A DNA stretch of 36,496 nucleotides from assembly GCA_013152145.1 (NCBI GenBank), contig JAADGW010000230.1, positions 1 through 36,496 on the forward strand, written 5' to 3'. Below the pieces are notes generated by a model. It was not told the DNA's origin, did no database searches, and was given only the letters and a program-made list of their open reading frames with translations. The translations under genes and the position numbers were made by a program. Of this stretch, positions 3,461 through 26,460 are shown in pieces (the first letter of the stretch is position 1; the number at the start of each line of letters is the position of its first letter). Source of the DNA: Deltaproteobacteria bacterium (GTDB lineage Bacteria; Desulfobacterota; Desulfuromonadia; Desulfuromonadales; Geopsychrobacteraceae).

Positions 3461-4795
3461 TCAGGTTCCGCCGGCCAGTTTCTGCGCTGCGGAGTGCTTC
3501 AGTTCTTGCAGCGACTCTTCTAGGATACTCAATCCTTGCTCCAGCTGCTCATCGGTGATCACCAGTGGCATCAGAACCCGCAGTACGTTGCCGAAATTGC
3601 CGCAAGAGATCAGGATCAGCCCCTTCTGATAACAGAGCTGGGTCAGTTTTTTCGCTTCTTCGGCCGCGGGTTCTTTGGTTTGCCGGTCGCGGACCAGTTC
3701 CAGCGCCAGCATCGGCCCCTTACCGCGCACCTCGCCAATGATTTCGTGCTCGGTCTGCAGTTTCTCAAAGCGGCTGCGCAGGGTTTCTCCCAACTGTTCG
3801 GCACGCTGCAGCAGGCCATCCTCAATCAGGATTTCCAGGACCGCTTGAGCCGCCCTCACTGCCAGCGGATTGCCTCCATAAGTACTGCCAAGGCCACCGA
3901 CATGCGGCTTGTTCATAATCTCGCTGCGGCCGGTCACGGCACTCAACGGCAATCCGGCGGCCAGACTTTTTGCGGTGGTGATCAGATCGGGTTCGATCCC
4001 CCAATGCTCGCAGGCGAAAACCTTGCCTGTCCGGCCCATGCCGGTCTGGACCTCGTCGACGATCAGCAGGATGCCGTGCTTGCGGCAGATCTGCTGCAGT
4101 TTGGGGAAATACTCCGGCGGCGGGGTGATAAAGCCCCCTTCGCCCTGGATCGGTTCGACGATGACCGCGGCAACCTGCTCGGCGGCAACGTGGGTGATGA
4201 AGAAATCCTCCAGCAGGTCGGCGCAGGCCACCTTGCAGTCGGGGTATTTCTGTCCTATCGGGCAGCGGTAGCAGTAGGCGTAGGGCATTCGGTAGGTTTC
4301 CGCCGCAAAGGGGCCGAAGCCGAATTTGTAGGGTTTGACCTTGCTGGTCAGGGTCATTCCCAGACTGGTCCGCCCGTGAAAACCGTTCTCGAAGGAGATC
4401 ACCGCCGGTCGTCCGGTAGCATAGCGGGCGATCTTTACAGCGTTTTCCACCGCTTCGGCACCGGAGTTGAGGAACATGGTCATCTTTTCCGCGCGCCCCG
4501 GTGCCAGTTCGTTGAGTCGGGCAGCCAGCTCGATGTAGGGCTCGTAGGGGGCGATATGAAAACAGGTGTGCAGGTACTTGTCGGCCTGATCCTTGATCGC
4601 TTCGACAACCTTGGGGTGACAGTGACCGACGTTGTTGACGCCGATGCCGCCGGCAAAGTCGAGCAGTTCCCGGCCGTCGGCGTCGATCATGATCGCTCCC
4701 TTGGCTGCGGTGATGAAAGACGGAGTGGTAACGGCCAGCCCCGGCGGGGTGTGCTGATTGCGAAGTTTCATCAATTGGTCATTGCGTGTGCTCAT
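3461..4795 (-). CDS. gabT: 4-aminobutyrate / 5-aminovalerate aminotransferase (class III PLP)
   Basis: NSGAEAVENAVKIAR, FHGRTSLGMTLTSKVKPYKFGFGPFA, PIQGEGGFI, VDEVQTGMGRTG and the Lys motif TTAKSLAAGLPLSAV. Confidence 0.9.
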   Translation of the reverse strand: MSTRNDQLMKLRNQHTPPGLAVTTPSFITAAKGAIMIDADGRELLDFAGGIGVNNVGHCHPKVVEAIKDQADKYLHTCFHIAPYEPYIELAARLNELAPGRAEKMTMFLNSGAEAVENAVKIARYATGRPAVISFENGFHGRTSLGMTLTSKVKPYKFGFGPFAAETYRMPYAYCYRCPIGQKYPDCKVACADLLEDFFITHVAAEQVAAVIVEPIQGEGGFITPPPEYFPKLQQICRKHGILLIVDEVQTGMGRTGKVFACEHWGIEPDLITTAKSLAAGLPLSAVTGRSEIMNKPHVGGLGSTYGGNPLAVRAAQAVLEILIEDGLLQRAEQLGETLRSRFEKLQTEHEIIGEVRGKGPMLALELVRDRQTKEPAAEEAKKLTQLCYQKGLILISCGNFGNVLRVLMPLVITDEQLEQGLSILEESLQELKHSAAQKLAGGT

Positions 4796-5156
4796 AAGCG
4801 TTGCTCCTTAGCTCTATAGGTTCCGTTCGGGACAAGCGAATATCCATGCGTAGCTGAGGTCGATCACCGTAATAAGGCCGCGGCGACAGTTGCCTGGTGA
4901 TTATTTATCATTCGACTGTCAGGCTTAATTTCAAAGACCGTACCAAGGCCAATAAACAGCCGTCATAGCTTGTTTTGAGACTGAGATGGGTACGCAGTGA
5001 GTGATGGTCCGGAGAAACTTTGTGGCAAGGAACGATAAATAGTTTCCGATTTGCATAAACCTTGCGTTTATGCATAATGCTGAGAGAGATCCGTTCAAAA
5101 ATGGATTTCAGCACACAAGAGTTTTGTTATGTCGCGGTAAAAAAGGAACCATAGAG

Positions 5157-6905
5157 ATGACCGATAATGATCTGAACTTCACTGGCGAAGCGTTGGATAA
5201 TTTACGCCACACCCTGCTGAATGCCGCTGGTGAAGGCTTGCTGGCGGTCAACACCCTTGGCATTACCCTGCTCGCCAACCGGGTTGCCCGCGAGGGTCTC
5301 GGTTGCTACCCGGGTATTTCCTTAAAAGAAGCCATCCCGGAACTCTGGCCACACGTCTCCGAAACCCTGCAAGACCGGCAGCGGCGGGTGGAAATCCCGG
5401 TGCAGCTGGGGGGAACCAGCTTTTTGACGCGGATCAGTCCCGTGCTGGCTGATGGCGAACTGGCCGGAGCGGTGTGTGTGCTTGAAGAACGCACCAAGCT
5501 GAATGAGCTGGCCGGTGAGATGCTCGCCTACCAGGATCTGACCCACGAACTGGACGCGATTATCGACTCATCCTCCGACGGTTTGTGGATCTGTGATGCT
5601 CAGGCCAAGGTTATCCGTATCAACCGGGCCTCGGAGCGGATCAACAACATCAGCGCCGAAGAGGTGGTCGGGCGCAACATGACCGAACTGATCGAGCACG
5701 GTTTCATCGACCGCTCGGTCACTTTTGAGGTCATCAAAACCGGGCAGGTCAGCAACATTTTGCAGCAGCGCGGCGAGCGCAAGCTGATCCTGACCGGGAC
5801 ACCGGTTTTTGACAGTGATGGCGCCCTGCTGCGGGTTGTGGTCAGCGAACGTGACATCACCGAAATCGACACCCTGCAGCGCAACCTGGAGGAGCAGGAG
5901 GCGATGAAGGATCAGTTCCGGCTGCAGGTACTGGAGCTGCAGCAAGCGTTCCAGAATTCGCGCCAGGTGATCGCCAGAAGCCCCTGTATGGTTAAGTCGC
6001 TGACCCAGGCATTGAAGGTCAGCGGAGCCAATTCGTCGGTGCTGATCCTCGGTGAATCGGGGGTCGGTAAAGGGTTGATCGCCGACCTGATCCACAAGAA
6101 TTCCAGCCGTGCCGAAAAGCCGATGATCAAGATCAACTGCGGCGCCATCCCCGAATCGCTGATCGAATCGGAATTGTTCGGCTATGAAAAGGGGGCTTTT
6201 ACCGGTGCCCAGGGGAGCAAACCGGGCTATTTCGAAATGGCCGACGGCGGCCTGCTGTTCCTTGACGAAATCGCCGAACTGCCGCTTTCCTCGCAGGTGA
6301 AACTGCTACGTTTTCTCGAAGATGGCCAGATCATGCGGCTGGGGGGGACCAAACCGAAAACCGTCGACGTGCGGATTCTCGCCGCCACTCACCGTGATCT
6401 GGAGAAGATGGTCGAAAAGGGGAAGTTCCGCCTCGATCTCTATTATCGGCTGAACGTTATCCCGATTTATGTCCCGGCGGTGCGCGAACGCAAAGACTGC
6501 ATTTTGCCGCTGATTCGCTACTATCTCGACCTCTTCGGCGAGCAGACCAAGGTCAGCAGACGCCTGACCAGGGCCGCCTCGGATGCCCTGCTTAACTACA
6601 GCTATCCCGGCAATGTCCGGGAGCTGATGAACCTCTGTGAACGGCTGGTGGTGATGTCTGAAACCGAACTGATCGACCTGCCCGATCTGCCCGGCCACGT
6701 AGCCCGCCGTGCTATCCAGGAGAACGCATCGACCAGCGACGATTGGCCCGAGCAGATGTCGCTGCGGCAGATCATTGAAAGCGTCGAGCGGGCGGTGTTG
6801 AACAAGGGAACGGAAAGATACAAGAACCAGGCACGCATGGCCGAGGCCCTCAATGTTAACCAGTCGACCATCACCCGCAAGCTGAAACGTTACGGCATCC
6901 GCTGA
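5157..6905 (+). CDS. PAS-domain sigma-54-dependent transcriptional activator (Fis/TyrR-type HTH), copy 1
   Basis: Start MTDNDLNFTG preceded by AAAGGAA. GESGVGKGLIADLIH (Walker A), ELFGYEKGAFTGAQ (GAFTGA), GGLLFLDEIAELPLSSQVKLLRFLEDG, C-terminal NQSTITRKLKRYGIR HTH. Confidence 0.95.
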   Translation: MTDNDLNFTGEALDNLRHTLLNAAGEGLLAVNTLGITLLANRVAREGLGCYPGISLKEAIPELWPHVSETLQDRQRRVEIPVQLGGTSFLTRISPVLADGELAGAVCVLEERTKLNELAGEMLAYQDLTHELDAIIDSSSDGLWICDAQAKVIRINRASERINNISAEEVVGRNMTELIEHGFIDRSVTFEVIKTGQVSNILQQRGERKLILTGTPVFDSDGALLRVVVSERDITEIDTLQRNLEEQEAMKDQFRLQVLELQQAFQNSRQVIARSPCMVKSLTQALKVSGANSSVLILGESGVGKGLIADLIHKNSSRAEKPMIKINCGAIPESLIESELFGYEKGAFTGAQGSKPGYFEMADGGLLFLDEIAELPLSSQVKLLRFLEDGQIMRLGGTKPKTVDVRILAATHRDLEKMVEKGKFRLDLYYRLNVIPIYVPAVRERKDCILPLIRYYLDLFGEQTKVSRRLTRAASDALLNYSYPGNVRELMNLCERLVVMSETELIDLPDLPGHVARRAIQENASTSDDWPEQMSLRQIIESVERAVLNKGTERYKNQARMAEALNVNQSTITRKLKRYGIR

Positions 6906-6920
6906 AACCGAATGGTGATC

Positions 6921-6995
6921 TTGCACAAATGCAAGATCGTCACCTGAACCACTCCCTCGTTGTACCCCTTCAACCCTATTTTTGCATTTGTGCAA
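6921..6995 (+). promoter_or_regulatory. Paired candidate upstream activator sites TTGCACAAATGCAA (6921-6934) and TTGCATTTGTGCAA (6982-6995)
   Basis: The two 14-mers are exact reverse complements of each other and each is a near-palindrome. They lie between the activator gene and a sigma-54 promoter match. Confidence 0.6.
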
Positions 6996-7110
6996 GGAAA
7001 TATGACCCCATATTTCCCTCCTCAATGCCTCCTTTCCGGGCGCATCCCGACAAAGCAGGCCCGATTCATACACACAGCTGTATCTGCGGCAAAACCGGCA
7101 AAACAGTGTT

Positions 7111-7126
7111 TGGCACCACCTTTGCT
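7111..7126 (+). promoter_or_regulatory. Sigma-54 (-24/-12) promoter TGGCAC-CACCT-TTGCT
   Basis: Matches TGGCAC-N5-TTGCW at every fixed position; lies directly downstream of a sigma-54 activator and upstream of the ALDH gene. Confidence 0.75.
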
Positions 7127-7206
7127 ATTTAATCGGGACAGACTGAGCTGCTGTTGATGCTCTGAGCTTCGCGGCATGAAAACTGAACCACTATGCCCTG
7201 AAAGTT

Positions 7207-7281
7207 TTGTAACTATTCAGCCGGATGGCCTTGGAGTGGGTAGTGCGAGGTCATATCCACCGCGCTGCTGAATAGTTACAA
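7207..7281. repeat. 15-bp perfect inverted repeat (TTGTAACTATTCAGC ... GCTGAATAGTTACAA) with 45-bp spacer; MITE/IS-remnant-like
   Basis: Arms 7207-7221 and 7267-7281 are exact reverse complements. Confidence 0.6.
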
Positions 7282-7352
7282 GGTTTTTAAATAAATCCGT
7301 ACATTTTCGCTGGCGTGTTGTGGCTATAACCACCGAATCAAAGGAGCAAACA

Positions 7353-8849
7353 ATGAAAACCGACACCATAACAACTGACATTTCTACCCTCACACAGGGC
7401 GCAATGATCCACGGTAAATGGGTCGATGGATCTGCTGGCACATTTGAGGTTCGCTCGCCTCACACGGGCGAAGTTTTACATAAGGTTGGCAAATGCTCGC
7501 CTGCCGATGTCGAAAAAGCCGTCACGTCTGCCAAAGCTGCCCAACTTGGCTGGGCAAACATGCCCTTAATTGAACGGGTGAAAATTCTGCGTCGTATTCA
7601 TGCCCTGTTTCTGGAGAGGGCGGAACCGATCGCGCAGATGCTCACTGCCGAGATCGGGAAAACTATCACTGATTCGCGGGAAGAGGTTTTTGAATATTCC
7701 GCACCCTCATGGGGAAAAGCGGCTGAGGAAGTCCTACGCCATCGCGGCTTGTCCCTGCCGTCCACGCAAGAACAGACAACCAACAAGCGACTTGTCCTCA
7801 CGCACCGCCCGCTCGGGGTCGTTGCTGCGATCACACCCTATAATTTCCCTACTGATATCTCCTCGATTGCCCTGGCACATATCGTGGCGGCTGGAAATAC
7901 GGTGGTCTGGAAGCCTTCGGAATATGCTGCTGTAGCCTGCGCAATGATGGCAGATATTTTTGTCGATGCGGGCCTTCCTGAAGGTGTAATCAACGTCATC
8001 CAAGGGGTTGGCGATGTGGGAGCCGCGCTGGTAGAGCATGAAGACATTAAGGGGGTTTTCTTTACCGGCTCGACCAAGACCGGGCGGGAGATTGCCATCA
8101 AGTGCGCACTCAAGCCACACCTTTTGGAACTTGGCGGAGATGGTCCCTTTATCATCCTGCCGGATGCGGACATCGACGCGGCAGTTGACGGCGCGATAAA
8201 TGGCTGTTTCTACTACTCCGGCCAAGTCTGCACCTCGGCAGAGCGCCTGCTGGTCCATGAGGACATCTATGACGAATTTGTTGAAAAATTTAAATCACGC
8301 GCTCGAAAACTGAAAATCGGAGACCCTAAGAACGAAGAGACCGAGATGGGGCCACTTTGTAATGAGACAACCTTGCACCGCGTCCGGGAACACGTGAAAG
8401 ATGCCGTAGCCAAAGGTGCAGCCATTGAACAGATTGGTCCAGAGGAGGGTTTGTACTTCCCCGCAACCATCCTGACCGGTGTCACTACAGATATGCTGAT
8501 CGTGCAGGAAGAAACCTTCGGCCCGGTCGCCCCGATCATCAAAATCGGTTCGGCTGAGGAAGCCATCAAGATCGCCAACTCCACAGGTTTGGGCTTGATT
8601 GCTTCGCTTTGGACCCGGGATCTGGCCACAGCCTGGCGCGTAGCCGAGGCACTGCCCCACGGGTCGGTCAATATCAATGAAACAAGCAACTACTGGGATC
8701 AGTTGGCACCCTTTGGCGGTACCGGGAACAGCGGTGTAGGTCGAGAGCTCTCACAATGGTTTTTGGAGTCGTTCACGGAACGCAAATTGATCGTCTTCGA
8801 TTTGGGCGGCGAGATTCGTTATGATCGCCGTGCGGAGGGTGGCTGGTAA
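7353..8849 (+). CDS. NAD(P)-dependent aldehyde dehydrogenase (semialdehyde dehydrogenase or GapN-like; substrate unresolved)
   Basis: ATG at 7353 preceded by AAAGGAG. ALDH motifs ITPYNFP, FTGSTKTGREI, LELGGDGPFIIL, catalytic SGQVCTSAER, EETFGPV. Confidence 0.9.
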   Translation: MKTDTITTDISTLTQGAMIHGKWVDGSAGTFEVRSPHTGEVLHKVGKCSPADVEKAVTSAKAAQLGWANMPLIERVKILRRIHALFLERAEPIAQMLTAEIGKTITDSREEVFEYSAPSWGKAAEEVLRHRGLSLPSTQEQTTNKRLVLTHRPLGVVAAITPYNFPTDISSIALAHIVAAGNTVVWKPSEYAAVACAMMADIFVDAGLPEGVINVIQGVGDVGAALVEHEDIKGVFFTGSTKTGREIAIKCALKPHLLELGGDGPFIILPDADIDAAVDGAINGCFYYSGQVCTSAERLLVHEDIYDEFVEKFKSRARKLKIGDPKNEETEMGPLCNETTLHRVREHVKDAVAKGAAIEQIGPEEGLYFPATILTGVTTDMLIVQEETFGPVAPIIKIGSAEEAIKIANSTGLGLIASLWTRDLATAWRVAEALPHGSVNINETSNYWDQLAPFGGTGNSGVGRELSQWFLESFTERKLIVFDLGGEIRYDRRAEGGW

Positions 8850-12378: not shown

Positions 12379-15300
12379 TTATCTACTTTCCGGTTCATCT
12401 AAGGATTCCATCCGCCCCAAATGTCCCTCTATCATCTCCATATAGGTCGCTTCTTCGTTGCTTTTGTAAACCATGAAAGAGGCAATCTCACTGGCCAGGA
12501 TCGCATACTTGATCTTTGCCGGCAGTTGCTCGATACGGTTGCGGAAACGTCTGACCTTGCTGATCAGACGCGGCAGGTGCAACAGGATCGCTTTGTGATA
12601 GAGCGGCTTATCACAGAGTTGCGGATTATTCTGAAAGACTCGGAATAGCCGTGAATAGTGCACGTTGATTTTCTGACTGATCTCTGCAGAAGCCTCGGTG
12701 TACAGGAGCGGCGTAGTGCTGTTCTGCACTCGGCGGAAAATCAGCTCCGCCTCATCCTCCGCCCGACGGTTGAGAATGTCGATAACATCGGCGACATACT
12801 GCGCCTTGTTGGCGAGAAACTCCTTCTCCGTCAGCATCAGGTTGGCGATGATTTCATACGATGATGAAATAACCCCGCACTTGTTGGCCGAAGCATCACG
12901 CAGGATGACGACACCGCGTTGCTGCAATTCGATCCGCGCATCGGGCGTGATGAAGGAGTTGGCGCCCTCAACAATGATCTTTGCTCGTGGATTGCCCTCT
13001 TCATCGAAGAACCGCCCGCAGTTACTGGCGTCGAGGGTTTCCGGCCGGCCACCGGCCGGGATGAACAGGTCAGTGGTGACTTTGAAGATCAGCTGGTTGT
13101 ACTCACGATAGAATTCATCGTTGGTCACCCACTGTTCCTCGAGTCCATCGACGGTAGCTACCACTTTCTTGAACAGTTTACGCAACCCATCCTGACGCGT
13201 CTGGTTCCGGTAAAGGATAAAACTGCCCGGGTGCAGCGCCTGCGGCTCATAAGCCTCCATATCCTGCTTGAGAACAATCTGCTTCAGCGCTTTGTGGTCG
13301 GCCCCCTCCGGGTCGTAGAAAGCACCGGTGCCATCGACAATCAGACAGATTCTCACCTGCGGGCAGCGCTCCAGCATCAGCTGCATGGCGTTGCCGGCAA
13401 CATCGCCGTTGGGACCGCCGGTCAGCTTTACGGTGAAGGAGTCCTGGTGCATATTGATACCCAGTTTGCCCATGGCGACCTCGGCAAAACGGACCACCCC
13501 GGTTGAAGTGACAGCGTATTCCTTGTGATTGATACCGACCTTCTTGCTCGACATGATCCCGGTGCCAAGCAGATAGCCGCGCCGCTGCGCCTGCCGGGCG
13601 ATCAGTTCGATCATGACATCGTGCATATTTTCGTCGGGACCGAGCTCGATCGGCTCATCCTCACCGTAGTAATCGACCACGCGGGGATCTTTGGCGCGAC
13701 CATTCTCAGTGACGAAAATATCGAGGAAGGCGTTGATAAAGCCGTACTGCAGCTTGTAAAGCCGCGGGATCAGCATCTCCTTGTCGAGATTGCCACCGGC
13801 ATCCAGCACCGCAACCATCTTCGAACCGCCCTCATAGATATCCTTGTTTTTCAGATGCTGGGTATGGGCCAGGACATAATTTTCCTTGAACACCGTATTG
13901 GCGGCGGTGACGTACTCATCCCGACCCTGCGTGATCAAGGTCCGCCAGCCCCCGCGGGCGATGTCGGAAAAACCGATATGATAGCCGGTACCGTAGCGAC
14001 CGTAGAAATAGGTCACCCGAAATGGCCGCTCCGGCGGCAGGTCTGAAATAAGATCGCCACCGAGCTGCTCCAGATAGACCGGATCGAGCCGGAACGCCAG
14101 GGCATGTTTTTCGGGAACAAAGAAATTGGTTTTCAGCGTGTTACGGATAAAGGTCAGTGCGCAGTTAAAAATCCGCCGCCGGAATTTATCGAGAAAATGC
14201 CGTCCGGTATTGTACTGTTCAATCAATTGCACGGTTTCAGTCAGGACCTTGGCGTACTCTTCGTTACGCTGCGCCTGCTGCGGATCGAAACGGATCCGGA
14301 ACAGTTTTACCAGTTGCAAAGCAATATCGGGATGATTGTGAAAAGCCCGCATCACCCCTTCAAGATCGTAGGTATCGGGGTGGGTGTGCGCCATGTTGGT
14401 GTGGCAGAAGCCGACCATGGCGCACACCAAAGAGGCATCCATGCCGCTGGCCAGGCCGGTCGGCACCAGTTCACGGTAGGTTTGCGAAGAGGAACGCAGA
14501 ATCTGGGTATTGTACAGTTCCTCCTGTAATTGGCAGTAGAGCTCCGAGTCCTTTTCGATGCGGCCACCATCGGCGGCGGTCACATAAAAGGTCGAAAGAA
14601 AATAGGGATGGGTGCCGTTACTGATCGTCAAACCGTAAGCACGCTCAACCGAAACCTTGAGCCGCCGGAAGATTTCCAGTACCTGGGTCAGGAAATCATT
14701 TTCCGGGGGATTGCTGACGCCGAAAAAGAGCCGAGCTTCATTGGCAAGCCCTTCATCGGCATCGGGAATTTCCAGGTCGAGATAAATTCCGTCATGCATC
14801 ATCGTCTGCTGATAGAGCCAGAGGATCTTGGCGACCCGGCGCGGCGGTGAGTCGAGCACATAGTGCTGATTGTTCAGCCAGAGAATCGCCAGTAGCTTCT
14901 CCCGCTGGCCGTGATCAAAGCCCGGATAATATGTTTTCAGGGCCGCAGTGACCCGCTGCTTGATTTGCCGTGGGATACTTGGAACTTCTGCCTCGGCAAT
15001 TGCCCGATGTTTTTTACGGTCAAATACGTATTTCTGAATTTCCAGAAATTGTTCGGTGCCCGGCAGTTTAGTTTTTGAATCAGTGAACTCCGCAAAAGAA
15101 ATCTGTCTTTCCTGTGCAATTTTCAGCGTTTCATAAATCGAACCGGGCCTATTTAACCCAGCGAGGATCAGTGTCTTTTCACGGTCGGCAAGAATTATCC
15201 GGCGGTTATTTTTCGTCCCGGACAACCCGTATGCTAAAGCCGCTAACGCATCCGGTTCATTTTGCATAGAAACAAAAAAATAGGGATGCATATTCTCTTT

Positions 15301-15414
15301 GAGCCAGGTCAGATTGGCGTTCATCTGTTCATATTTCCCCCTGATCGCCTGTAGAAAATCGGGCTCCTGCAGCTGATACTTCTGGTCGTTGGTAACGCTG
15401 CTTGCGATACTCAT
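12379..15414 (-). CDS. Large NAD-dependent glutamate dehydrogenase (Glu/Leu/Phe/Val dehydrogenase family)
   Basis: 1011 aa. GYHIGFSDIARGGWRTLITQGRDEYVTAANTVFKENYVLAHTQHLKNKDIYEGGSKMV, KLTGGPNGDVAGNAM, KIIVEGANSFITPDARIELQQRGVVILRDASANKCGVISSSYEI. Confidence 0.9.
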   Translation of the reverse strand: MSIASSVTNDQKYQLQEPDFLQAIRGKYEQMNANLTWLKENMHPYFFVSMQNEPDALAALAYGLSGTKNNRRIILADREKTLILAGLNRPGSIYETLKIAQERQISFAEFTDSKTKLPGTEQFLEIQKYVFDRKKHRAIAEAEVPSIPRQIKQRVTAALKTYYPGFDHGQREKLLAILWLNNQHYVLDSPPRRVAKILWLYQQTMMHDGIYLDLEIPDADEGLANEARLFFGVSNPPENDFLTQVLEIFRRLKVSVERAYGLTISNGTHPYFLSTFYVTAADGGRIEKDSELYCQLQEELYNTQILRSSSQTYRELVPTGLASGMDASLVCAMVGFCHTNMAHTHPDTYDLEGVMRAFHNHPDIALQLVKLFRIRFDPQQAQRNEEYAKVLTETVQLIEQYNTGRHFLDKFRRRIFNCALTFIRNTLKTNFFVPEKHALAFRLDPVYLEQLGGDLISDLPPERPFRVTYFYGRYGTGYHIGFSDIARGGWRTLITQGRDEYVTAANTVFKENYVLAHTQHLKNKDIYEGGSKMVAVLDAGGNLDKEMLIPRLYKLQYGFINAFLDIFVTENGRAKDPRVVDYYGEDEPIELGPDENMHDVMIELIARQAQRRGYLLGTGIMSSKKVGINHKEYAVTSTGVVRFAEVAMGKLGINMHQDSFTVKLTGGPNGDVAGNAMQLMLERCPQVRICLIVDGTGAFYDPEGADHKALKQIVLKQDMEAYEPQALHPGSFILYRNQTRQDGLRKLFKKVVATVDGLEEQWVTNDEFYREYNQLIFKVTTDLFIPAGGRPETLDASNCGRFFDEEGNPRAKIIVEGANSFITPDARIELQQRGVVILRDASANKCGVISSSYEIIANLMLTEKEFLANKAQYVADVIDILNRRAEDEAELIFRRVQNSTTPLLYTEASAEISQKINVHYSRLFRVFQNNPQLCDKPLYHKAILLHLPRLISKVRRFRNRIEQLPAKIKYAILASEIASFMVYKSNEEATYMEMIEGHLGRMESLDEPESR

Positions 15415-15537: not shown

Positions 15538-16482
15538 TTAATCGAGGGCACAACTCAACAGCTCAATCACACAACGGCTTGCCAGGTGAGAAGTGATATC
15601 TCCGGGTCCGTCAACCTGCGGATTGACTTCCATAATATCAAACCCAAGGATATTTCCACGACGGGCAATCAGGTAGATCAAGTCGGAAAATTCCGGAAAT
15701 AACAGGCCGCCCGGTTCTGGAGTCCCCGTGCCTGGAGCTGCCGTTGGATCGAACACATCAATGTCAACACTGATATAGTAATCACCTTCGGCAAACAGTT
15801 CGGCCAACGACTCCAGCCTGGTCTGTTTCAGTTCCCGGGCGGTGACTATTTTAGCGCCTTGCTGCTGAATCCATTCCACATCGTTCCCTGAATTGGCCAG
15901 TCCCCGGATACCCAGCAAGGTGATCGATTCGGCCAGACCATCCTCCAGGATGCGGGCAACGGGACTGCCGTGGGTATATTCGCTTTTAAAAATCCGGTCG
16001 CAGTCGACATGAGTATCGAAATGAACATAATGGATCTTCCGGCCGGAAAACGCCTTGACGACCGGGTAGGTAATCGAATGATCGCCGCCAAGCACCGCAG
16101 GCACGGCCCCCTTGTTCAAGATGGCACTGACTGCACCGGTGATTGCATCAAAGTTTCTCTCCCGGCAGAGGGGCTCGATATCCACATCTCCGGCATCAAC
16201 AATATTTTTTCCCCGCAAGATCCACTTGCGCCGGTCCGCATCGTAAAAACGCTCCTCAACCCCCTCATAGGCATAAAGCATAGAGGCCTGGCGGATCGAT
16301 CGCGGCCCGAACCGGGTCCCGGGCTTATTGGAGCAGCCCTCATCATAGGGGACTCCCAGGATGGCCGCATCGGCACGACTCTGAATATCCCAGAAAGGGT
16401 AGCCGGCAAAGGTGGCAATCCCGACGTAAGGAGAGGTCCCGCTCGGCTGGGCAAAGGGGTTGTTCTGGACAAATTTTTCCAT
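15538..16482 (-). CDS. speB: Agmatinase / ureohydrolase family
   Basis: GTRFGPRSIRQAS, LGGDHSITYPVV, HFDTHVDCD, YISVDIDVFDPTAAPGTGTPEPGG. Confidence 0.85.
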   Translation of the reverse strand: MEKFVQNNPFAQPSGTSPYVGIATFAGYPFWDIQSRADAAILGVPYDEGCSNKPGTRFGPRSIRQASMLYAYEGVEERFYDADRRKWILRGKNIVDAGDVDIEPLCRERNFDAITGAVSAILNKGAVPAVLGGDHSITYPVVKAFSGRKIHYVHFDTHVDCDRIFKSEYTHGSPVARILEDGLAESITLLGIRGLANSGNDVEWIQQQGAKIVTARELKQTRLESLAELFAEGDYYISVDIDVFDPTAAPGTGTPEPGGLLFPEFSDLIYLIARRGNILGFDIMEVNPQVDGPGDITSHLASRCVIELLSCALD

Positions 16483-16723: not shown

Positions 16724-16739
16724 AGCACAAGCTGTGCCA
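16724..16739 (-). promoter_or_regulatory. Candidate sigma-54 promoter TGGCAC-AGCTT-GTGCT
   Basis: GG-N10-GC spacing with a full TGGCAC -24 box; lies upstream of the ureohydrolase operon and directly downstream of sigma-54 activator copy 2. Confidence 0.6.
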
Positions 16740-16934: not shown

Positions 16935-16976
16935 GCGGCCGAGACTGGATGCATAAGTGCATCCAGTCTCGGCCGC
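16935..16976 (-). terminator. Strong intrinsic terminator of sigma-54 activator copy 2
   Basis: 19-bp perfect stem GCGGCCGAGACTGGATGCA-(4 nt)-TGCATCCAGTCTCGGCCGC, followed on the minus strand by TTTTTT. Confidence 0.9.
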
Positions 16977-17007: not shown

Positions 17008-18768
17008 TCAGGCAATACCATAGCGCTTGATCTTACGGGCCACGGTCGACTGATTAATTCCCAGAGCATCAGCCACTTTGTACTGATTGCCAAACTCTTC
17101 CATAGCTTCAGCGAGCAATGACCGCTCGTAACTGTTCATCGCCTGCTGCAGCGTCAACCGCTCTGTCGGCAGCGTCCCTCGCGAGCTGTTGCCAGCGATA
17201 TTTTGCGGCAGATCCTGAATATCGATCACATCACCATCTGCCATGACCAGGATCCGCTCACAGACATTCATCAACTGCCGCACATTGCCGGGCCAGTGGT
17301 AAGAGAGCAATACGTCCATGGCCGCACTGGTAATTCGTTTGTTGATACCGTTGCGTTTGCTGAACAGGTCGACATAATGCTGAATCAGCGGAACGATACA
17401 ATCCTTGCGATCGCGCAGTGATGGGATATGCAGCGGGATAACATTTAAACGATAGTAGAGATCGAGACGAAATTCCTTTCTCTCCACCATCTCTTCAAGG
17501 TCGCCATGGGTGGCCGCCAGAATACGAACATCGACTTGCTTGGCCTTGGTACCGCCAAGCCGCGTCACGTTACCATCCTCAAGAAAACGGAGCAGTTTCA
17601 CCTGGGATGCAAGTGGCAGTTCAGCAATCTCATCGAGAAACAGCACCCCCCCGTCCGCCAGCTCTATATGTCCCGGCTTGGCTGCCTGGGCTCCAGTAAA
17701 GGCCCCCTTTTCGTGGCCGAACAACTCAGACTCGATCAGGGTTTCCGGGATCGCACCGCAATTGATTTTGATCAGCGGTTTCTCCGCACGATGAGAGCGC
17801 ATGTGGATCAGATCAGCAAACAGCCCCTTGCCGACCCCCGATTCCCCCAGAATCAGGACTGAGGAATCGGCGTGGCTGACCTTGATCGCCTGGTTCAGGG
17901 CCCTGATCATGGAAGGACTCTTGGCGATGATCTTGGTTGACGCCAGTTCTGCTTGTTGCATTTCCAGAATCTGATGTTGAAACTGGTTGCTCAGGGCGGC
18001 TTGCTCTTCCAACTGGCGCTGCATCTGGTCCATTTCAGTAATATCCCGCTCACTGACAACAATTTTGATCAACTGCCCGTCATCATCAAAGATCGGAGTT
18101 CCCGATTTTATCAACTTGCGTCCCTCTCTGGTGCTGCAGAGGAAACTGACCGCTTTTTTCTTCTCTATAACCTCCAGAGCCGCAGAACGTTCCACCAGTT
18201 CAGTTTTGACCAGATCGTACATATTATGGCCGATGACATCCTCGGCCGTAATATTATTGATCCGTTCAGCCGCGGTATTGATACGCAGAACATTGGCCTG
18301 GCCGTCATAAACCCAGAGTCCCTCGTAACAGGAATCGATAATAACCGCGAGTTCTTTTGATAAATCCCTGAAGTCACGCATTTCCCTGGCAATGATCTCA
18401 ATTTCGGTATTTTCGGAAAAAACACAGATGGCACCGAATACCTTGGAGCCGGAGAGGATGGGACTGATCGTGACAAGAAACTCATGCCCCTCCTTCATCA
18501 CCGAAAACCCTGTGCGAGGATTTTTATCCTTGAGAGTTGCCTCAACCTGCTCCCACAATCGCGGAAAATGCTCGACAAGTGAACTGCCGGGGTGGATATC
18601 AAGGTTCTGCCTGCTGACCCGGTCGGACAGCAGGACAGAGCCCTCGTTATCAACCGAGAGCACACAGTCACCACCGACATTGCTCTGGGTCTGATTAAAG
18701 GCCTCCCGGTGCTGCTTATGATCCAGATCCTGCTCTGCATTTCCGGTCAATTTCAAATTTCCAGACAT
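17008..18768 (-). CDS. PAS-domain sigma-54-dependent transcriptional activator, copy 2 (paralog of 5157-6905)
   Basis: GESGVGKGLFADLIH, ELFGHEKGAFTGAQ, FLDEIAELPLASQVKLLRFLEDG, C-terminal NQSTVARKIKRYGIA; start MSGNLKLTG at 18768. Confidence 0.95.
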   Translation of the reverse strand: MSGNLKLTGNAEQDLDHKQHREAFNQTQSNVGGDCVLSVDNEGSVLLSDRVSRQNLDIHPGSSLVEHFPRLWEQVEATLKDKNPRTGFSVMKEGHEFLVTISPILSGSKVFGAICVFSENTEIEIIAREMRDFRDLSKELAVIIDSCYEGLWVYDGQANVLRINTAAERINNITAEDVIGHNMYDLVKTELVERSAALEVIEKKKAVSFLCSTREGRKLIKSGTPIFDDDGQLIKIVVSERDITEMDQMQRQLEEQAALSNQFQHQILEMQQAELASTKIIAKSPSMIRALNQAIKVSHADSSVLILGESGVGKGLFADLIHMRSHRAEKPLIKINCGAIPETLIESELFGHEKGAFTGAQAAKPGHIELADGGVLFLDEIAELPLASQVKLLRFLEDGNVTRLGGTKAKQVDVRILAATHGDLEEMVERKEFRLDLYYRLNVIPLHIPSLRDRKDCIVPLIQHYVDLFSKRNGINKRITSAAMDVLLSYHWPGNVRQLMNVCERILVMADGDVIDIQDLPQNIAGNSSRGTLPTERLTLQQAMNSYERSLLAEAMEEFGNQYKVADALGINQSTVARKIKRYGIA

Positions 18769-19116
18769 AGTCCAGGTCCCTTCTCTTCTCCCCAATGGTC
18801 AGATCTTAAATTATCCACAATTCGAATACGCATCACAGCATGCAAAACAGAATCATGAGACCACATCAGAATCAAAAACGCAAGCGATACACTCGTTTTT
18901 GCCGACATAAGACCCTGGCGGCCGATAAAAAAACAGTGCAATTCCCGATCCAGTAATACGGACCCGAGAATGCACCGTTTAGAGGTTAAACAAGCTTGCA
19001 GGGAATGCAAACGATTGGGAGAAGTACTTCAGGTGAGTCTGGCAGCTCTTTACCGTCGATCGCTTCGCGGCAGGCGACGGTCCGGCAGGTAACGTGGTTG
19101 TCAATATGTCTGGGGT

Positions 19117-26415: not shown

Positions 26416-26460
26416 AAAAAGGCCGGGCAGCAACATTCTCTGTCGCCGCCTGGCCTTTTT
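26416..26460 (-). terminator. Intercistronic terminator/attenuator between patA and the AOR gene
   Basis: Minus strand AAAAAGGCCAGGCGGC...GCTGCCCGGCCTTTTT begins four bases after the patA stop. Confidence 0.75.

Follow-up and report, generated by a model that had tools for sequence, protein, structure and literature searches.

A sigma-54 control module in which an activator gene is very probably joined to its own binding sites and to the promoter of the next gene

GabR of Bacillus thuringiensis, a PAS-AAA+-HTH sigma-54 activator from a gabT-gabR-gabD cluster, activates the gene for GABA aminotransferase; it responds to GABA through its PAS domain and binds upstream of gabT, at a 21-bp repeat region, and not at its own promoter (PMC4279683). 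The LuxO and SypG sites at qrr1 are paired TTGCA...TGCAA sequences upstream of a sigma-54 promoter, and the LuxO motif is TTGCAWWWTGCAA, with a spacer of 3 bp (PMC10162802). PrdR, the activator of proline reductase in Clostridiales, has the UAS TGT-N10-12-ACA (PMC6615313). One-component enhancer-binding proteins (EBPs) of Desulfovibrio co-localise with their own sigma-54 promoter, which in one case lies downstream of the EBP gene, and in their regulons the similarity of the motifs does not always follow that of the DNA-binding domains (PMC4641369).

The window, by which we mean the whole analysed stretch of 36,496 nucleotides, is the complete contig C17 of a 2.71-Mb genome assembled in 294 contigs. 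The features that matter most are these:

3461 to 4795, minus strand: aminotransferase of the GABA/5-aminovalerate type (TIGR00700, above cut-off), divergent from the activator
5157 to 6905, plus strand: activator (EBP) with PAS, Sigma54_activat (GAFTGA), AAA lid and Fis-type HTH, helix VNQSTITRKLKRYGIR
6921 to 6934, no strand: candidate UAS site 1, TTGCA-CAAA-TGCAA, TTGCACAAATGCAA, from sequence match and orthologs
6982 to 6995, no strand: candidate UAS site 2, TTGCA-TTTG-TGCAA, TTGCATTTGTGCAA, with a counterpart in the relatives G032 and G027, there at 59-60 bp from site 1
7111 to 7126, plus strand: sigma-54 promoter TGGCACCACCTTTGCT, exact consensus, conserved in orthologs, start predicted near 7137
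7353 to 8849, plus strand: aldehyde dehydrogenase (ALDH, SSADH-like), likely target, from profile and homology searches

The product of 5157-6905 scores 231 bits against PF00158 (Pfam), contains GAFTGA in its translation and has an N-terminal sensory PAS and a C-terminal Fis-type HTH (Pfam PF00989, PF18024 and PF02954), and its predicted architecture is that of the one-component bacterial enhancer-binding proteins (PAS-AAA+-Fis HTH). PrdR (NF041552) is its best NCBIfam profile and both are tied to amino-acid catabolism, but identity with PrdR was rejected at 400 bits against a cut-off of 795 and with a conserved site that is TTGCA-N4-TGCAA and not TGT-N10-12-ACA. The half-sites are nearly identical to those of LuxO, whereas the window has a 4-bp spacer and an activator with a PAS domain; the LuxO UAS (TTGCA-W3-TGCAA, 13 bp) was likewise discarded, the spacer being 4 bp in every site-bearing member of the clade. 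GabR is the closest functional parallel, likened by function and layout only, and differs in that the 14-bp sites of the window follow the activator gene, whose own promoter carries an operator-like block. The aminotransferase is retained as a neighbour in G032 and G027. In the window two more genes are divergent from the activator, one for an acyl-CoA dehydrogenase and one that is succinate-glutarate CoA-transferase-like, both below their equivalog cut-offs. With a semialdehyde dehydrogenase or an amino-acid permease on the other side, this context makes a PAS-type activator of GABA/5-aminovalerate catabolism the best reading of the predicted product, and the targets in the relatives are functionally coherent (SSADH equivalog, amino-acid permease, GABA-type aminotransferase). 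A glutamate dehydrogenase-like protein of 1011 aa is encoded at 12379-15414, and G032 and G027 have a relative of about 60% identity close to their activator.

The coordinates that the earlier note gave for the two 14-mers, the promoter at 7111 and the activator stop at 6905 are exact to the base, and so is its spacing (about 61 bp, with placement 115-190 bp upstream): the starts of the sites are 61 bp apart, and the promoter begins 190 bp after the first and 129 bp after the second. It had also called the 14-mers exact reverse complements, which is true of the sequences, but the mirrored N4 is incidental, since each 14-mer is in itself a dyad with TTGCA and TGCAA arms and the inner N4 varies in the orthologs. 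Allowing at most two mismatches, TTGCACAAATGCAA has three matches in the window against 0.37 expected, and a scan of the genome finds TTGCANNNNTGCAA at just three places in the 2.71 Mb, two of them in the control region and the third at C22:7184. The full-consensus -24/-12 promoter that it described is confirmed at 7111 as TGGCAC-N5-TTGCW, with GG/GC at -24/-12, and is kept in the orthologs. Because this consensus occurs 8 times in the genome and 3 times in a reversed control, the promoter alone is weak evidence; its position and conservation turn it into strong evidence. A further match, TTGCATAAATGAAA at 26458, spans a gene start and was judged to be due to chance. The 9-bp palindrome GGAAATATGACCCCATATTTCC 3' of site 2 was not seen in the orthologs, and an Rfam search of the window gave no family at threshold.

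Orthologous activators in four other genomes are followed by one or two palindromes and a sigma-54 promoter, positioned as in the window. The palindromes and the promoter are thus held in place as a phylogenetic footprint, which argues that the control region is real. In G032 and G027, where the activators are 87-88% identical, there are two palindromes 59-60 bp apart (TTGCATTTGTGCAA and TTGCATTTACGCAA in G032, the second with one mismatch; TTGCATTTATGCAA and TTGCAATTGTGCAA in G027) and the promoter TGGCATCTCCCTTGCA, and the gene after it is an APC-type amino-acid permease. The orthologs in G131 and on contig C74 of G017 (73-75%) have one exact palindrome and the promoter, and then a GabD-type SSADH. 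A sixth member of the clade, on contig C24 of G017, has an imperfect TTGCA-AAAT-GGCAA that overlaps the stop codon, and faces an SSADH equivalog. In all five activators with an NQSTITR helix and an exact site (those of the window, G032, G027, G131 and contig C74 of G017), TTGCA-N4-TGCAA lies at most 80 bp from the stop, and TGGCA[CT]-N5-TTGC[AT] begins 178-214 bp past it. With a permease in two relatives, a GabD-type SSADH in two others and an unrelated ALDH in the window, the control module is conserved while its cargo gene is exchanged. The proposal that activator, likely UAS pair and promoter are one unit thus holds beside the orthologous activators, and rpoN is present in the genome (contig C243).

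The same arrangement extends to more distant homologs. A site of the form [AT]TNCA-N4-TGNA[AT], fixed as [AT]TNCA before the tally and with looser forms left unscored, lies between stop and promoter in 46 of 85 homologous activators, against none in reversed and 0.2 in shuffled controls; many paralogs lack an exact site under this strict definition. The type of helix matches the type of palindrome in every one of the 45 activators with a site in the 83-row tree set: NQSTITR goes with TTGCA, NQST[IV]AR with ATGCA, SQ[PA]T[IV]AR with ATTCA and TQATIAR with ATACA. A distant IH[TP]TTLWR helix also goes with TTGCA, which among close relatives is restricted to NQSTITR helices. The tree requires only two changes of the outer base and four of the third, so that independence is limited, much of the match could be due to shared ancestry alone, and we claim no significance for it. 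The agreement links each site to the activator beside it and not to another protein, and differs from the Desulfovibrio regulons in that the motif does track the DNA-binding domain within this subfamily. Two paralogs that we examined face a P5C dehydrogenase, one of them adjoined by proline dehydrogenase and amino-acid ABC transporter genes, which fits a family of activators of amino-acid catabolism. The paralogs with the helix GMSQPTVARKL (L101, L105, L107, L109, L112, L113, L115, L117 and L136-L138) lack a downstream site and a sigma-54 promoter, and in several genomes they are separated from a first copy by about 10 kb.

The genome of the window has three related activators, the focal one with TTGCA, and a second (17008-18795, minus strand) and a third on contig C169 with ATGCA. 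The third (L054, G000:C169:1-1600) has a frame break in the fragment, an ATGCA-N4-TGCAT site and the promoter TGGCATTCTCTTTGCT, and is followed by a reading frame that may be P5C dehydrogenase-like. Hairpins at the first two, and the layout around the second, are as follows:

6913 to 6942, plus strand: hairpin with a 13-bp stem, its loop the 4-nt UAS spacer, at the 3' end of the activator mRNA, without a T-run
16949 to 16962, no strand: UAS of the second activator, ATGCA-N4-TGCAT, forming the tip of a 19-bp stem (16935-16976) with a T-run behind it
16724 to 16739, minus strand: promoter-like TGGCACAGCTTGTGCT of the second activator, sigma-54-like, facing an agmatinase-like gene (15538-16482)

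The hairpin at site 1 and the parallel layout of the second activator, like a third operator at 5052-5074, are absent from the earlier note.

It could be argued that site 1 and its counterparts are primarily an RNA hairpin or terminator of the activator mRNA and not an activator site. The stem at site 1 has -14.8 kcal/mol and its flanking pairs covary in the orthologs, and at the second activator the stem and the TTTTTT after it form a textbook intrinsic terminator. Yet site 2 is conserved though it has no long stem, many members of the family retain little beyond the 5-bp arms and N4, and the core sequence itself is fixed beyond its pairing and tracks the helix; there is, moreover, no T-run at site 1 of the window, and the two roles are compatible, so we consider this explanation quite unlikely. 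Around 15 of 55 sites have arms extended by at least four further perfect pairs (chance 1/256 each; a few loci are double-listed), and we take this to mean that one palindrome may have two roles, as an enhancer site and a hairpin at the 3' end of the activator gene. We found no paper on an enhancer within a terminator among the open-licence literature. Another explanation is that the sites are real and mainly used by a paralogous activator of the same genome (17008-18795 or that on contig C169), as the site cores of the three are almost the same except at the outer base. This we regard as highly improbable: the paralogs' own sites are ATGCA-N4-TGCAT, TTGCA keeps to its one helix type in close relatives, and the adjacency of activator and site is conserved. 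The chances seem to us even that there is a wider rule in this activator subfamily, namely a recognition code between helix residues and two half-site bases, with one outer base pair separating paralogous circuits, and with site 1 often inside the hairpin or terminator of the activator gene, one palindrome then being both enhancer and RNA terminator.

Which gene the module drives in the window is a separate matter, and here a repeat in the ALDH leader has to be considered:

7209 to 7279, no strand: MITE-like element of 71 bp, terminal inverted repeat GTAACTATTCAGC, 8-bp target-site duplication at 7201-7208 and 7280-7287

As an inverted repeat it spans 7207-7281. The 14-bp end of this repeat has 256 matches in the 2.71-Mb genome (both strands, at most one mismatch) and none in a reversed control. 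The copies are 42-144 bp long with variable middles, and in 11 of 12 complete ones the flanking 8-mers agree at seven or eight positions, whereas cross-paired flanks average 3.2. By this pattern the repeat is MITE-like and duplicates 8 bp of its target; the genome has two Y1 transposases, and a REP/RAYT identity was dropped after the duplications indicated a MITE. The earlier statement that the promoter drives the ALDH gene is less well supported than the rest of its claims, and it is conceivable that the module is real while the ancestral target was lost and the ALDH has a promoter of its own behind the MITE. The closest orthologs have the permease at this place, the MITE lies between promoter 7111 and the ALDH, and a search of 97 other genomes at E<=1e-110 gave no homolog of the ALDH. 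The ALDH is only 37-38% identical to the GabD at the equivalent place in the relatives and of a different subfamily; its nearest solved relatives include succinate-semialdehyde dehydrogenases. No close copy of the permease was found in the genome of the window. Still, the flanks of the element (AAAGTTTT/AAGGTTTT) match at 7 of 8 positions, and this duplication suggests that the promoter already stood before the ALDH when the element inserted, the leader then being about 147 nt long, as for the permease. No sigma-70-like site was found between MITE and ALDH, and a GabD-type ALDH holds the target position in two relatives. We therefore think it unlikely that the ALDH is not the target, and take it as the likeliest target of promoter 7111 in this genome. 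That the ALDH was swapped in through recombination or misassembly at the repeat is disfavoured, the same duplication arguing otherwise.

Two further elements lie on the other side of the activator gene:

5052 to 5074, no strand: candidate third operator TGCATAAACCTTGCGTTTATGCA, conserved, over the sigma-70-like promoter of the activator
4930 to 4945, minus strand: weak conserved sigma-54-like element TGGTACGGTCTTTGAA, facing the aminotransferase, with the GC at -12 replaced by GA/GT

The operator is near-invariant in G032 and G027 and kept in G131 despite a different upstream neighbour, and its overlap with the sigma-70-like promoter match (5050-5078) suggests that the activator probably autoregulates through it. 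The pattern of the aminotransferase-facing element is conserved in the orthologs as TGGTAC-N5-TTG[AT]A.

On the sites, the promoter, their conservation and the helix-site match, all taken from sequence and comparison, we consider it very probable that the activator, its own UAS sites, promoter 7111 and the downstream gene, here the ALDH, form a compact sigma-54 enhancer-promoter module. Counting against it are the two clade members with one exact site only and the sixth with an imperfect one, as well as the MITE in the leader and the differing ALDH subfamily. For the module we infer a mechanism in which the activator, as a dimer, would bind each TTGCA-N4-TGCAA just past its own stop codon. Its PAS domain would sense a signal, likely GABA or 5-aminovalerate, or its semialdehyde, upon which a hexamer would assemble and loop to the RNA polymerase-sigma-54 at 7111, and the leader of the downstream gene (in the window, the ALDH) would be transcribed. 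The activator would probably also occupy 5052-5074 and thereby set its own level.

Many sigma-54 activators have, to our knowledge, no assigned binding site. For the activator of the window, position and conservation are enough to assign one, and the sequence of the site tracks the recognition helix. If this match holds, the sites of many unstudied activators could become predictable. The module also illustrates how a ready-made inducible control unit can retain its parts while swapping the gene that it drives.
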